Below are positions 6,722 to 11,005 of a stretch of 24,958 nt of DNA, piece by piece. Each line of letters starts with the position of its first letter. The first letter of the stretch is position 1. The notes beneath the pieces were generated by a model that had not been told where the DNA came from, did not search any database, and was given only the letters and a program-made list of their open reading frames with translations. Source of the stretch: a virus; IMG/VR virus record IMGVR_UViG_3300030104_006918, positions 1 through 24,958 of that record. One strand, written 5' to 3'. A program made the position numbers and the translations under genes.

Positions 6722-8335
6722 ATGTGTCAAAAATGTGGATGTAATACGTGTGAAACTAAAAGTACTGCGTTAGTACTTAATGAGAGCAAAGCTCCGAAGA
6801 CTATATTGTCTGAGGGTTTAAAACACCATATAGACACTAATAAACCGCTTACTGAGCATTTATATCGTGCTGGTTCACGTGCTTACTTTGATTTATTTGC
6901 AGAAGCAAGATCATTATATAGTAGAGGTATTTTAGAATTTACTCATGAAGATGATTTAGCATTGTTAACTGAAACTAATTTAGGCCATTTTGGTTTATAT
7001 GAAACTGTAAATTTTGAAGGTGAAGAATATGATATAATATCAAAAGATGGGGATTGGGTTTATCTTAGATCAATTTATGATACACAAGTAGGTAGAAAAG
7101 AAATTAAAGTTAAAGAAAAAGATATTACAATAAATGAAACTAAAGTACCTTTAGATTTTCCTATTGAATTAAATGAACAAATGGATATATATGATGACAT
7201 TGCAAATATGGAATTTGGAATGGATTATGATCAATTAGGTTCAAATGAACAAGAATGGGTTCGTGATGAAATTGATAACATGGAAATGAGAGAATCATCA
7301 AATGAATCTAAAATGCCTACTCAAGACCAAGTAGATAAATTCTTTGCATTAACTCAAAATGAAATACATTATTTAAATTCTAAACCAGTAGCTGGTCAAG
7401 AAAAAACTTTCAATAAAATGGAAGTTGAACCTTGGGATGAATATGATTTATCTAACTGGAATTCATTAGTTAGAAAAGCAAAATCTAAAGGTCAATTAAA
7501 TGAAAATAAGATTAATGATTTTGTAGATAAATGGGAAGATAAAATAGAAAAAATACCAGTTATTGGACCTATGATATCTAAAGGTATAGATAATTTACAG
7601 GGTAAAGTTAATACACTTGTAAAAACTGCTAAAGAAGAAGCAGGTGAAACTAGAGAAGCTATGAAAATAGTTGCTCAGTATATGAGAGGTGAAACTGTAG
7701 GTAAAGAAAAAAATGATTTTTTAAAAACACAATTAAAAGATCTTTTTAAAATTAGTGGTGCTGTTTTAGCTGCTATTGGATTCCCTCCAGCAGCTGTTAT
7801 TGGTTTTATAGTTGCTAAATTAGGATTAGGAAATGAATTATTTAAATTAGATGATGCTGATAAAACAACTACTAGAGGTAAAGATGAAAGAAAATCTATA
7901 GCAGGTAAAATTAAAACATTTGATGGTGTAAAGTATGTTCCTTATAAAGATATACTTCCTTATCTAGAAAAAGGAGATATTTCATTAGGAGAAGTAAAAA
8001 GAATAGATGAAGCTATTGCTAATATATTAGATGAAAAGAAAAAAGCTAAGAAAAAAGACAATAGACCAATAGGAAAACCAATGCGTTCTTCTTCAGGTGG
8101 TAAAGCATATAAAGTATATGTTAAGGATCCTAAAACTAAAAAAGTTAAAACTGTTAGATTTGGATCTGGTGGTTTAAGAGCTAAAATTAATGACTCAAAA
8201 GCAAGAAAGGCTTTTGCAGCAAGACATAAATGCTCACAGAAAAAAGATAGAACTAAAGCTTCATATTGGAGTTGTAGATTACCACGTTATGCAAAATTAC
8301 TCGGACTTAAATCAAGCTTCTCTGGATTCTGGTAA
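6722..8335 (+). CDS. mosaic virion protein with Cys-rich N-terminus and shared cassette
   Basis: This encodes 537 residues. The first ten hold four cysteines (C2, C5, C7, C10) in a C-x2-C-x-C-x2-C pattern that could bind a metal. Residues 28-95 are a helical module (I-L-S-E-G-L-K-H-H-I). Residues 194-261 (bases 7301-7504) repeat the cassette of the 214-1086 gene. Residues about 275-368 include a hydrophobic stretch, I-S-G-A-V-L-A-A-I-G-F-P-P-A-A-V-I-G-F-I. The C-terminal 90 residues carry Y-K-V-Y-V-K-D-P, F-A-A-R-H-K-C-S and Y-W-S-C-R-L-P-R-Y-A-K, ending S-G-F-W. I recall this C-terminal pattern in cyanophage and other marine T4-like virion proteins. The last 47 bases overlap the next gene. 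Function is unknown and a structural or cargo role is inferred. Confidence 0.65.
   Translation: MCQKCGCNTCETKSTALVLNESKAPKTILSEGLKHHIDTNKPLTEHLYRAGSRAYFDLFAEARSLYSRGILEFTHEDDLALLTETNLGHFGLYETVNFEGEEYDIISKDGDWVYLRSIYDTQVGRKEIKVKEKDITINETKVPLDFPIELNEQMDIYDDIANMEFGMDYDQLGSNEQEWVRDEIDNMEMRESSNESKMPTQDQVDKFFALTQNEIHYLNSKPVAGQEKTFNKMEVEPWDEYDLSNWNSLVRKAKSKGQLNENKINDFVDKWEDKIEKIPVIGPMISKGIDNLQGKVNTLVKTAKEEAGETREAMKIVAQYMRGETVGKEKNDFLKTQLKDLFKISGAVLAAIGFPPAAVIGFIVAKLGLGNELFKLDDADKTTTRGKDERKSIAGKIKTFDGVKYVPYKDILPYLEKGDISLGEVKRIDEAIANILDEKKKAKKKDNRPIGKPMRSSSGGKAYKVYVKDPKTKKVKTVRFGSGGLRAKINDSKARKAFAARHKCSQKKDRTKASYWSCRLPRYAKLLGLKSSFSGFW
7301..7504 (+). repeat. 68-codon cassette, copy 2 (in 6722-8335 gene)
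   Basis: This is the second copy of the 583-786 cassette, in the same orientation and of the same length. Differences are Met to Ile, Lys to Glu, Phe to Trp, Ala to Ser and Lys to Gln. Base-level identity is high, including synonymous positions, which points to a fairly recent duplication or gene conversion. Confidence 0.95.
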
Positions 8336-8600
8336 ACCATATACAGATTTAGAAGTAACAGATGATTATACTTTAAGACAATTTGATGAGTCAATTGACC
8401 CTATTGAATTACTATGGCATCGTGATGATGAGGATAGAGTAGTTGAAATTGTAGGCGATACAGATTGGATGTTACAGTTAGATAATTCTTTGCCGACTTC
8501 ACTTCAAGAGCGTATATTTATACCTAGACATGAATGGCATAGAGTCATTAAAGGAACTGGAATATTAACTTTAAAAATATATAAAAATGATAAATTGTAA
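8289..8600 (+). CDS. small conserved-looking cupin-like phage protein
   Basis: This encodes 103 residues from the ATG at 8289, which overlaps the end of the preceding gene by 47 bases in another frame. An in-frame ATG at 8190 would add 33 residues that fully overlap the preceding gene's conserved C-terminus, so I prefer 8289. The sequence has E-L-L-W-H-R-D-D-E-D-R, D-W-M-L-Q-L-D-N-S-L-P and F-I-P-R-H-E-W-H-R-V-I-K-G-T-G. The spacing of His and acidic residues in a beta-rich chain suggests a small cupin or double-stranded beta-helix fold. I recall similar short proteins in T4-like marine phages. The function is unknown. Confidence 0.6.
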   Translation: MQNYSDLNQASLDSGKPYTDLEVTDDYTLRQFDESIDPIELLWHRDDEDRVVEIVGDTDWMLQLDNSLPTSLQERIFIPRHEWHRVIKGTGILTLKIYKNDKL

Positions 8601-8655
8601 TTGTACGACCTGTAAATGTGGAGTAAGTTGTAGTTGTTCTTGTTGTGATTGTTAA
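8587..8655 (+). CDS. 22-residue cysteine-rich (metallothionein-like) micro-ORF
   Basis: The ATG at 8587 opens a 22-codon frame ending at the TAA at 8653-8655, with the first 14 bases overlapping the end of the previous gene. The peptide is MINCNCTTCKCGVSCSCSCC-DC, with nine cysteines (positions 4, 6, 9, 11, 15, 17, 19, 20, 22) in C-x-C and C-x2-C spacing. All nine are encoded by TGT. Such spacing is typical of metallothioneins and other metal-thiolate peptides, but the peptide is too short for confident assignment. A late promoter follows directly at 8665. Expression is unproven. The extreme composition in an AT-rich genome argues against a chance frame. Confidence 0.5.
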   Translation: MINCNCTTCKCGVSCSCSCCDC

Positions 8656-8692: not shown

Positions 8693-9445
8693 ATGGCATT
8701 ACACGGATTTTTTGCAGGGTGGTTTGGGAATGACCTTTCTGCTATTGCTAGTCAAACAAATGTTAAATCAGCTGGATATAGAGTATTTGGCCAATGGGGA
8801 AGAGGTTCAGAACTAAATTACAACACTGGATCCGATGAGATTTCTTGCATTATTAATACACCATCAAATTCAACAATTGGCTCAGTTAATAACAATGCAT
8901 TAAATAATGCTAAAGCTGGTTCATTTGCTACGATGAATGACTGGGGATTAGCATCAACTTGGAATGCAGGAATTTTAGGAGGAGCAAATGGTGGATCAGC
9001 ACCTGAAGAGGCACCTGAAAAACAATTTTTTATAGCAGGATGTATAGAATTTTCTTCATATAATTTAAATGCAGCAACTTTAGGACTCCAATTAGGTGAT
9101 GGTGATGTAGATGGAGCATATAATAACGGTGGAAACCCTCAATTTACCCAACCTGGAAATATTAATGCTGGAACTGATAATTATGCTATAATGTTAGTAG
9201 GTGGTATAAAACAAGGTCAAAGTGTAGCAGGTAGAACTGCATCAAGAATACATTATGTTGTTGCAGATGGTGCATTAGGATCAACTTTAGCAAAATTAAA
9301 TTATTATTATTCTAGTACTGCTGCTTATGGATTAGCAGTTCAAAATTCAGACTCAGATGAATTAGCCGCAGGAAAATGGTTAAAAAATGGGTATGGTATA
9401 CTAGAAAATAAAGGAAGCGAAGTATATTGGGATATTAGCGGTTAG
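8693..9445 (+). CDS. putative abundant virion structural protein
   Basis: This encodes 250 residues of unknown family. It is rich in Gly, Ala, Asn and Ser and poor in Lys and Glu, unlike the highly charged neighbours. It has no signal peptide, membrane segment or targeting leader, and starts MALHGFFAGWFGNDLSA. Beta-type stretches such as Q-F-F-I-A-G-C-I-E-F and Y-A-I-M-L-V-G-G-I occur throughout, so a folded beta-rich particle protein (decoration, tail or fibre-associated) is plausible. It forms its own transcription unit, with a consensus late promoter in front and a strong terminator behind. This suggests high, separately controlled expression. The structural role is inferred from context and composition. 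Confidence 0.6.
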   Translation: MALHGFFAGWFGNDLSAIASQTNVKSAGYRVFGQWGRGSELNYNTGSDEISCIINTPSNSTIGSVNNNALNNAKAGSFATMNDWGLASTWNAGILGGANGGSAPEEAPEKQFFIAGCIEFSSYNLNAATLGLQLGDGDVDGAYNNGGNPQFTQPGNINAGTDNYAIMLVGGIKQGQSVAGRTASRIHYVVADGALGSTLAKLNYYYSSTAAYGLAVQNSDSDELAAGKWLKNGYGILENKGSEVYWDISG

Positions 9446-9510
9446 AATTAGATAATTAAACATTAAGACTGATTCATAGCCAGTCGCAAGTAAAAGAAGT
9501 ATTGAGATCT

Positions 9511-9542
9511 GTGGCCTCCATTTGGAGGTCACATTTTTTTTT
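9511..9542 (+). terminator. Rho-independent terminator
   Basis: A nine-pair stem, GTGGCCTCC/GGAGGTCAC with one G-U pair, closes a four-base loop and is followed by A then an unbroken T run. It lies about 65 bases after the stop at 9445 and separates the 8693 gene from the accessory block. Confidence 0.88.
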
Positions 9543-9552
9543 CGTATATTAA
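9521..9552 (+). promoter_or_regulatory. weak Bacteroidetes-type promoter candidate overlapping the terminator
   Basis: TTTG at 9521-9524, in and beside the terminator loop, is followed after 20 bases by TATATTAA (9545-9552). This is a partial match to TTTG-N19/20-TAnnTTTG. The spacing is the same as in the better site at 21447-21478. Some promoter is needed after the terminator for the 9575 gene. A partial T4-like octamer, TATAAATT at 9558-9565, is an alternative. Confidence 0.25.
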
Positions 9553-9574: not shown

Positions 9575-11005
9575 ATGAACAAAAACGTAGTAATTGTAGG
9601 AGCAGGAGTAGCAGGTGTAAATGCTGCTACTAAATTGGTCGATAATAATTTTGAGGGTAAAATTACTATTATTGATATGGGTAAAGATCCATATAAAAGA
9701 CCTTACGAAGAAGTAATGACTGGGTACTTAGGTGCAGGTGGTTGGTCAGATGGTAAATTAACTTATTCTACTCAAATTGGTGGACAATTATCTAAATATG
9801 TAGGTGATAAAAAAGCAATGGAGTTAATGAAGCAAGTAGTAGATAATTTTACTAGATTTCACCCCCACCCTGAACAAATAATCTTATCATCACCAGATGA
9901 AGAACCTGAATTTATTAAACCATATTTTGGTTTAAGGTTATTTCCATGTTGGCACATTGGTACTGATTATTTACACGAAATAGGTAAAAGCTGGTATGAT
10001 TATTTAGTTGATAAAGGTGTAGAATTTATTTGGGAAACTAAGGTTTATGATATAGATTTTGAAGATCAAGTAGTATATGTAAATGAATTAGAAGGTTATA
10101 TATATGATAAACTTATTTTTGGTGTAGGCAAATCAGGTATTGATTTTACTTCTGAAATAATGCAAAAATACGAATTACCAACTGAGGAAAAACCAGCTCA
10201 AGTAGGTGTTAGATTTGAGGCACCACAAAAACACTTTCAAAAGTTAATTGATGTAGCTTATGATTTTAAGTTATATAGAAAATTTGAAGATGAAGGTGTA
10301 TCACTAAGATCATTTTGTACAAATAATAATGCTGCTTATGTTGCTGTAGAAGAAACATATGGTGATCACAGTTATAATGGTCACGCTAAAAAAGATGAAG
10401 CATTTAGAAACGATATGACGAATTTTGGCATATTAATGGAAGTACAAGGTATTGATAAACCATTTAAGTGGGCTAGAGAATTAGTAGGTAAAGTACAAGA
10501 AAATAGTACAGGTTTATTTTATAGTCCAACCAGAGAGCCATCATCAACTTCAGAAGGTATAGATGTATCAGCTACTAAAATTAATGATTTAGATGTAGTT
10601 AAAGATGCATTTAAGGGATATTATAAATACATAGAAGATTTTATTAATGATATGAAAAAAGTATTCCCAACATTAAAAGATGATTGGGGTATTTATATAC
10701 CTGAAGTTAAGTATTTAGCTCCTGAGCCATTAGTAAATTATAAGGATTTATCTTTAACAAAATATCCAAATGTTCACTTTGTTGGTGATGCATTATCTGC
10801 TAGGGGGATTTCAGTATCAGGAGCTCATGGTACATTAGTAGCAGAACAATTATTAAAGGATCAAAAAGAAATAAATGATTTTTTAGAGCATGTAGATAAA
10901 CCAGGACCTTGGTCTGAAGAAGATGATAAAATTCATACTATAGGGGGTTTAACTAATGATAAAGAAGGATCATTTATGAAATTTCAAAATAAAATAAATA
11001 AATAA
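9575..11005 (+). CDS. FAD-dependent oxidoreductase (COG2509-like)
   Basis: This encodes 476 residues. Residues 5-20 (V-V-I-V-G-A-G-V-A-G-V-N-A-A-T-K) are the dinucleotide-binding GxGxxG Rossmann motif. It is followed by I-I-D-M, with the acidic residue after strand two that binds FAD ribose. Residues 53-62 (G-A-G-G-W-S-D-G-K-L) and 403-412 (V-G-D-A-L-S-A-R-G-I) match the signatures of the uncharacterised FAD-dependent dehydrogenases of COG2509, as I recall that family. The length fits the family. The substrate is unknown. It is the first gene of an accessory block between a terminator and a late promoter, and is not a usual T4-type structural gene. An auxiliary redox role in the infected host is inferred. 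No signal peptide is seen, so it is probably cytoplasmic. Confidence 0.8.
   Translation: MNKNVVIVGAGVAGVNAATKLVDNNFEGKITIIDMGKDPYKRPYEEVMTGYLGAGGWSDGKLTYSTQIGGQLSKYVGDKKAMELMKQVVDNFTRFHPHPEQIILSSPDEEPEFIKPYFGLRLFPCWHIGTDYLHEIGKSWYDYLVDKGVEFIWETKVYDIDFEDQVVYVNELEGYIYDKLIFGVGKSGIDFTSEIMQKYELPTEEKPAQVGVRFEAPQKHFQKLIDVAYDFKLYRKFEDEGVSLRSFCTNNNAAYVAVEETYGDHSYNGHAKKDEAFRNDMTNFGILMEVQGIDKPFKWARELVGKVQENSTGLFYSPTREPSSTSEGIDVSATKINDLDVVKDAFKGYYKYIEDFINDMKKVFPTLKDDWGIYIPEVKYLAPEPLVNYKDLSLTKYPNVHFVGDALSARGISVSGAHGTLVAEQLLKDQKEINDFLEHVDKPGPWSEEDDKIHTIGGLTNDKEGSFMKFQNKINK

Follow-up and report, generated by a model that had tools for sequence, protein, structure and literature searches.

A nine-cysteine micro-gene in marine phages encoding a putative minimal metallothionein

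Classical metallothioneins are of low mass and rich in cysteine, with CxC motifs and no aromatic residues. To our knowledge, the supply of metals during phage infection has been little studied, and a search of open-licence PMC full texts returned no report of a phage metallothionein. Animal and wheat metallothioneins contain M3Cys9 or Zn3Cys9 domains (PMC10612145), and a short fungal metallothionein of 26 amino acids carries seven cysteines in the arrangement X2-[CXC]-X5-[CXC]-X3-[CXC]-X2-C-X3 (PMC4755600). Contiguous Cys codons are also found in the polycysteine leader ORFs of mycobacteria, which act as attenuators in cis (PMC9031893).

The window, i.e. the whole 24,958-nucleotide stretch of phage DNA analysed here (IMG/VR record IMGVR_UViG_3300030104_006918), carries a 22-codon ORF with nine Cys codons. 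Its product shares with metallothioneins a very high cysteine content with CxC and CC motifs, a low mass and few or no aromatic residues and histidines. Screening against Pfam, PHROGs, NCBIfam and the PDB gave no significant match, and none to an SmtA/PmtA-type family among the NCBIfam and Pfam models; the best non-significant resemblances, wheat Ec-1 (2kak, E 6.8) and Pfam Metallothio_2 (PF01439, E 2.4), are both metallothioneins.

The nine-cysteine reading frame and its conservation

The features concerned are as follows:
8587..8655, + strand: nine-Cys peptide gene of 22 codons, encoding MINCNCTTCKCGVSCSCSCCDC and ending in the stop TAA, recognised from its translation and family conservation.
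8587..8600, + strand: 14-nt overlap between the first codons of the peptide gene and the last of the upstream gene; similar junctions (-14, -11, -8, -4 nt) occur in relatives.
8289..8600, + strand: gene of a cupin-like protein of ~103 aa directly upstream, its start uncertain; a frequent, not obligatory, neighbour.
9575..11005, + strand: FAD/NAD-dependent dehydrogenase-like gene (hereafter the FAD gene), which marks the commonest slot of the peptide.

The window peptide has the pattern C-x-C-x2-C-x-C-x3-C-x-C-x-C-C-x-C, immediately followed by the stop. A sequence-only reading of this DNA had proposed a 22-residue ORF with nine cysteines at 8587-8655, and translation reproduces its coordinates, frame, length and Cys count exactly. 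The C-x-C and C-x2-C spacing given there is present and was incomplete, a C-C pair and a C-x3-C step occurring as well. The overlap with a small upstream gene also stands, that gene being cupin-like and more likely to span 8289-8600 than the mechanical ORF 8190-8600. The 14-nt overlap suggests that translation of the peptide is likely coupled to that of the upstream gene.

Being very short and overlapping another gene, the ORF might have arisen by chance and have no function. In 200 simulated windows (Markov-2, with the same trinucleotide statistics), no ATG ORF of 15-45 aa attained 41% Cys; the highest Cys count was 7, with 3-4 being typical. In the real window the runner-up ORF contains 15% Cys, as against 41% for 8587-8655.

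Relatives were fetched from IMG/VR through the two neighbour genes, the peptide itself not being used as a query; the upstream cupin-like protein (8289-8600) and the downstream FAD-dehydrogenase-like protein (9575-11005) returned 80 loci each. The nine-Cys peptide was found behind the cupin-like gene in 17-19 of the 80 loci, and in 17 of the 80 it is a 22-aa ORF with the same start place, overlapping the cupin-like stop. In one locus (L030) it lies ~550 nt farther downstream, and in another (L020) the two frames are joined, a fusion that hinges on whether an A-run counts 3 or 4 bases and that may stem from misassembly. Beside the FAD gene the peptide was present in 29 of 80 loci; its absence from the other 51 indicates that it is dispensable. 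All neighbour-fetched peptides are 20-22 aa long and keep all nine cysteines in the identical spacing CxCx2CxCx3CxCxCCxC-stop. Copies found by pattern have nine cysteines by construction, the neighbour-gene sets alone being unbiased in this respect.

With the criteria relaxed to at least 5 Cys and at least 20% Cys, a scan of the 80 FAD loci and of loci L001-L203 revealed no copies of the family with six to eight cysteines. The stops, frameshifts and Cys losses that the sequence-only reading had named as evidence against the gene were thus looked for and not encountered; in the scanned loci the gene is either intact or absent, never partly degraded.

The sequence-only reading had also suggested comparing synonymous with non-synonymous change, and this was done on the neighbour-gene set (31 distinct DNA cores, 27 peptides), counting pairs with up to 20 differences. 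The set was extracted with the nine-Cys pattern, but this hid no degenerate copies, as the relaxed scan shows. Heterozygosity at the three positions of the Cys codons was 0, 0 and a mean of 0.30. Pairwise differences in these codons amounted to 1190 synonymous and 0 nonsynonymous, at fixed Cys spacing, while the non-Cys codons of the same pairs showed 661 synonymous and 2541 nonsynonymous differences. Variation of the Cys codons at the third position only argues that the ORF is translated and that purifying selection maintains the cysteines of its product. A functionless chance ORF has a negligible probability in view of this absolute Cys conservation with synonymous change, the many contexts and the occurrence in at least three bacterial assemblies, and it was rejected on the conservation in neighbour-gene loci with only synonymous Cys-codon change. 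That the micro-gene is real we regard as near certain; its mechanism is held less firmly.

Pooling the IMG/VR pattern scans with the neighbour-gene sets gave at least 119 distinct peptides of the nine-Cys type in at least 199 loci, the carrier count being a lower bound and some of the 199 loci overlapping on one contig. The carriers are marine: well over a hundred fragments of phage genomes, and a few bacteria. Among the listed peptides (at least 119), 85 have 21 aa, 19 have 22, 13 have 20, one has 23 and one has 36, with a family consensus of approximately M-K-C-N-C-K-x-C-N-C-G-T-S-C-D-C-T-C-C-N/D-C-stop (consensus peptide MKCNCKVCNCGTSCDCTCCNC). All but one of the 119 listed contain nine cysteines within 20-23 residues, the exception being the 36-aa form, which has more. 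This form (MRNRQNCNCENCKCQKACNCMKCNCSKSCDCACCDC; L114, IMGVR_UViG_3300030102_006951) looks like a partial duplication of the nine-Cys module. Phenylalanine, tryptophan and tyrosine occur in none of the 119 and histidine in one, and every one ends in Cys-stop; G9, S11 and N/D at positions 2 and 18 are the conserved non-Cys residues of the core. The gene measures 63-69 bp, below the usual gene-calling limits, which would explain its absence from family libraries. A tblastn search of INPHARED with the consensus peptide gave no match, a result that carries no weight because the BLAST low-complexity filter acts on such a query.

Other short Cys-rich frames were seen. A second micropeptide family, MKEKICKAICKITFNKVCLGWCDTKCCK-like with 6 Cys, occurs in the same region in L330, L340, L353, L357, L362-L367, L371, L004-L009 and L015, and one version of it, MKKLICNIIYYITFKQVCLGYCKK, overlaps the cupin-like gene at the very place expected for the start of the nine-Cys peptide. 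A further ORF of different spacing, MPCNCGDGGIFPPCLCEDKENCTCDSCTC, lies at L006:3905-3994.

Genomic contexts and neighbouring genes

Gene order around the peptide varies between phages, and several contexts were found. The commonest is ahead of the FAD gene, from which the peptide is separated in the window by a 250-aa gene at 8693-9445; in others it lies behind a cupin-like gene and ahead of a primase-like gene, or between an uncharacterised gene and the gene of a zinc-ribbon-like protein, with a clamp-loader-like gene beyond. A position among late virion genes, as first described, applies to this window; elsewhere the peptide stands beside primase, clamp-loader and nuclease genes or on bacterial contigs, so that a virion role is not indicated. 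No metal-regulation gene or site was identified near the peptide gene.

A T4-type large terminase match was present on 10 of 18 sampled carrier contigs, and the portal protein of the window is closest to those of Flavobacterium phage immuto (58% identity) and Microcystis phage Mel-JY01 (49%). The source phage is probably T4-like, with a marine Bacteroidetes bacterium as host. Neither the immuto nor the Melnitz phage genome yielded a real copy of the peptide in pattern searches; with up to 3 mismatches allowed, the sole match in the immuto genome does not read as the peptide.

The peptide was also found on apparent chromosomal contigs of at least three Flavobacteriales assemblies (L318; L428; L430/L431). 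In a Cryomorphaceae MAG (L318) it stands beside glutamine synthetase, PurM-like, pirin and MsrA genes; in two related Flavobacteriales it occurs on a contig with tufA, nusG and ribosomal-protein genes (G411) and beside an FMN-reductase-like gene (G529). The latter two copies abut tRNA-like sequence, as read by eye, and tRNA sequences are a usual insertion place of mobile elements. A real copy was present in 1 of 396 genomes of the order, that one being the seed genome. Bacterial occurrence is a minimum, undercounted because the first GTDB pattern scan was dominated by TGT/TGC repeats, and there is a small residual chance that the bacterial copies stem from MAG contamination. Taken as they stand, these rare copies speak for a function of the peptide outside the virion. 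Furthermore, the unrelated contexts and the bacterial housekeeping contigs fit a self-sufficient function rather than that of a subunit of one complex.

The upstream protein has no Pfam match. Its AF2 model (mean pLDDT 84) retrieved cupins as the top-ranked PDB entries in Foldseek (E ~4e-4, TM ~0.5, identity 10-16%), consistent with the double-stranded beta-helix fold of cupins, and H44, D46 and H84 are invariant. The fold and these residues suggest a metal-cupin, of which the peptide could be a dedicated metal donor, chaperone or accessory. Among the 84 distinct peptides listed, 21 lie directly behind a cupin-like gene, in at least two larger contexts and often with overlapping stop and start (mostly -14, -11, -8 or -4 nt), and the joined frames of L020 would point the same way unless they stem from a misassembled A-run. 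However, where the upstream sequence is long enough to tell, at least 56 distinct peptides lack a cupin-like gene ahead of them, most cupin-like loci lack the peptide, and metal binding by the cupin-like protein is itself putative. We consider such a dedicated partnership unlikely; the pairing of a metal-cupin with a metal-peptide is attractive and, because of these at least 56 peptides, would not be general.

The protein encoded from 6722 begins MCQKCGCNTC (window 6722-6751), and its relatives keep MCxxCGCxxC or MCxCGCxxC. We take this N-terminus to resemble the N-terminal nickel motif of HypB. The suggestion that the peptide acts together with it is not supported: the motif is also present in relatives without the peptide (L004-L007, L021, L022), and many neighbourhoods of the peptide contain neither a cupin-like nor a structural partner. 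A special link between the two was rejected, the motif occurring with and without the peptide. The genes at 196-1086 and 6722-8335 share a near-identical internal segment of ~70 aa (SKMPTQDQVDKFFALTQNE...NSKPVAGQEKTFNKMEV...DEYDLSN...LVRKAKSKG), which would represent either a shared module or a recent duplication.

A conserved RNA-like element precedes the FAD gene at 9466-9552 of the window and at the equivalent place in FAD loci. It consists of a hairpin with the invariant loop GATTCATAGCC and a covarying stem (RNAalifold: compensatory change in 6 of 8 predicted pairs), followed by a second inverted repeat with CTGTGGC, a T-run and CGTATATT. The element has no match in Rfam; it may combine a terminator with a promoter, or be a regulatory RNA of a new kind.

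With such a terminator-like region between the peptide and the FAD gene in its commonest slot, a short ORF rich in Cys codons could be a cis-acting, cysteine-sensing leader, in which ribosomes stalling at the nine Cys codons control the downstream terminator and gene. The polycysteine leaders of mycobacteria offer a precedent (Canestrari et al., via PMC9031893), both being tiny ORFs dominated by Cys codons. However, 45 FAD loci have the hairpin motif but not the peptide, the motif is not found within 150 nt downstream of 140 of the 197 listed peptide copies, and in about half of the contexts the next ORF begins less than 40 nt behind the peptide stop. The nine-Cys ORF thus lacks the leader structure of Cys attenuators, as judged for this hairpin, to which the terminator scan was confined. 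Moreover, in contrast to the contiguous codons of the mycobacterial leaders, its Cys codons are set apart at invariant intervals, and no terminator follows consistently downstream; a leader would also have no need of the conserved G9, S11 and N/D at 2 and 18. Cysteine attenuation is therefore rated very unlikely.

Predicted function and relation to known metallothioneins

The metallothionein composition, the nine cysteines packed into 19 residues, the lack of a leader segment and the fixed spacing with a CC pair are read as those of a stand-alone metal-thiolate peptide. We put at roughly 0.7 the probability that it is a cytoplasmic metallothionein-like peptide, made with and probably coupled to the cupin-like protein, whose nine thiolates would wrap a single cluster, most likely M(II)3Cys9 with Zn or else a Cu(I) cluster, and which would buffer or carry a thiophilic metal in the infected cell. 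The stoichiometry is probably ~3 Zn(II), since nine cysteines equal the known M3Cys9 domain, or several Cu(I) per peptide. The preferred role would be zinc buffering or supply for the zinc-ribbon enzymes of a large phage, with Cu(I) sequestration as the alternative. Both conservation and composition lend good support to the original description as a minimal metallothionein-like peptide of a kind usually missed.

Short peptides with very many cysteines can also be precursors of modified or disulfide- or thioether-bridged products, RiPP-like or antibacterial, with no role as metal ligands. Against this, no leader segment is present, nearly all members having 1-3 residues ahead of the first cysteine. 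Furthermore, the odd number of cysteines argues against a purely disulfide-bonded peptide, and aromatic residues are missing. Radical-SAM genes occurred in 3 of 12 carrier contigs, one above the curated cut-off and none adjacent to the peptide, and a radical-SAM partner was rejected on this ground. We regard a bridged product as extremely improbable.

Returning to the metal-thiolate reading, the peptide looks to be among the smallest metallothionein-like proteins yet described. At somewhat better than even odds, the family would form a new minimal metallothionein class (20-22 aa, nine Cys), possibly the smallest known, serving as an auxiliary gene of marine Bacteroidetes phages and sporadically of bacteria, by which the phage would manage zinc or copper. 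If it does bind metal, the peptide would push the lower size limit of metallothioneins further down; at this length it can be made by direct chemical synthesis, which makes metal binding readily testable. The gene also offers a test case for the movement of micro-genes among phage genome slots and bacteria.

The fungal and bacterial metallothioneins known to date appear to be longer than the peptide, which counts against the metallothionein reading. The bacterial SmtA and PmtA are likewise Cys-rich and intracellular metal buffers, a role predicted here; they are longer, SmtA having a zinc-finger fold with His ligands (PMC10612145), whereas the present peptides comprise 20-22 aa with practically no histidine. 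The short fungal Cu-metallothioneins (Neurospora crassa, Agaricus bisporus; Binz and Kagi family 8) are similarly minimal, single-domain, Cys-rich, CxC-based and of comparable size. In contrast, the phage peptides have nine cysteines in 20-22 aa, a CC pair, a terminal cysteine and another spacing that does not follow the fungal seven-Cys pattern, with no detectable homology. The M3Cys9 domains of animal metallothioneins and wheat Ec-1 resemble the peptide in having nine cysteines in one segment with CxC motifs, a likeness by Cys count, any homology being conjectural; there the domain is part of a longer protein, whereas here it is the entire protein.
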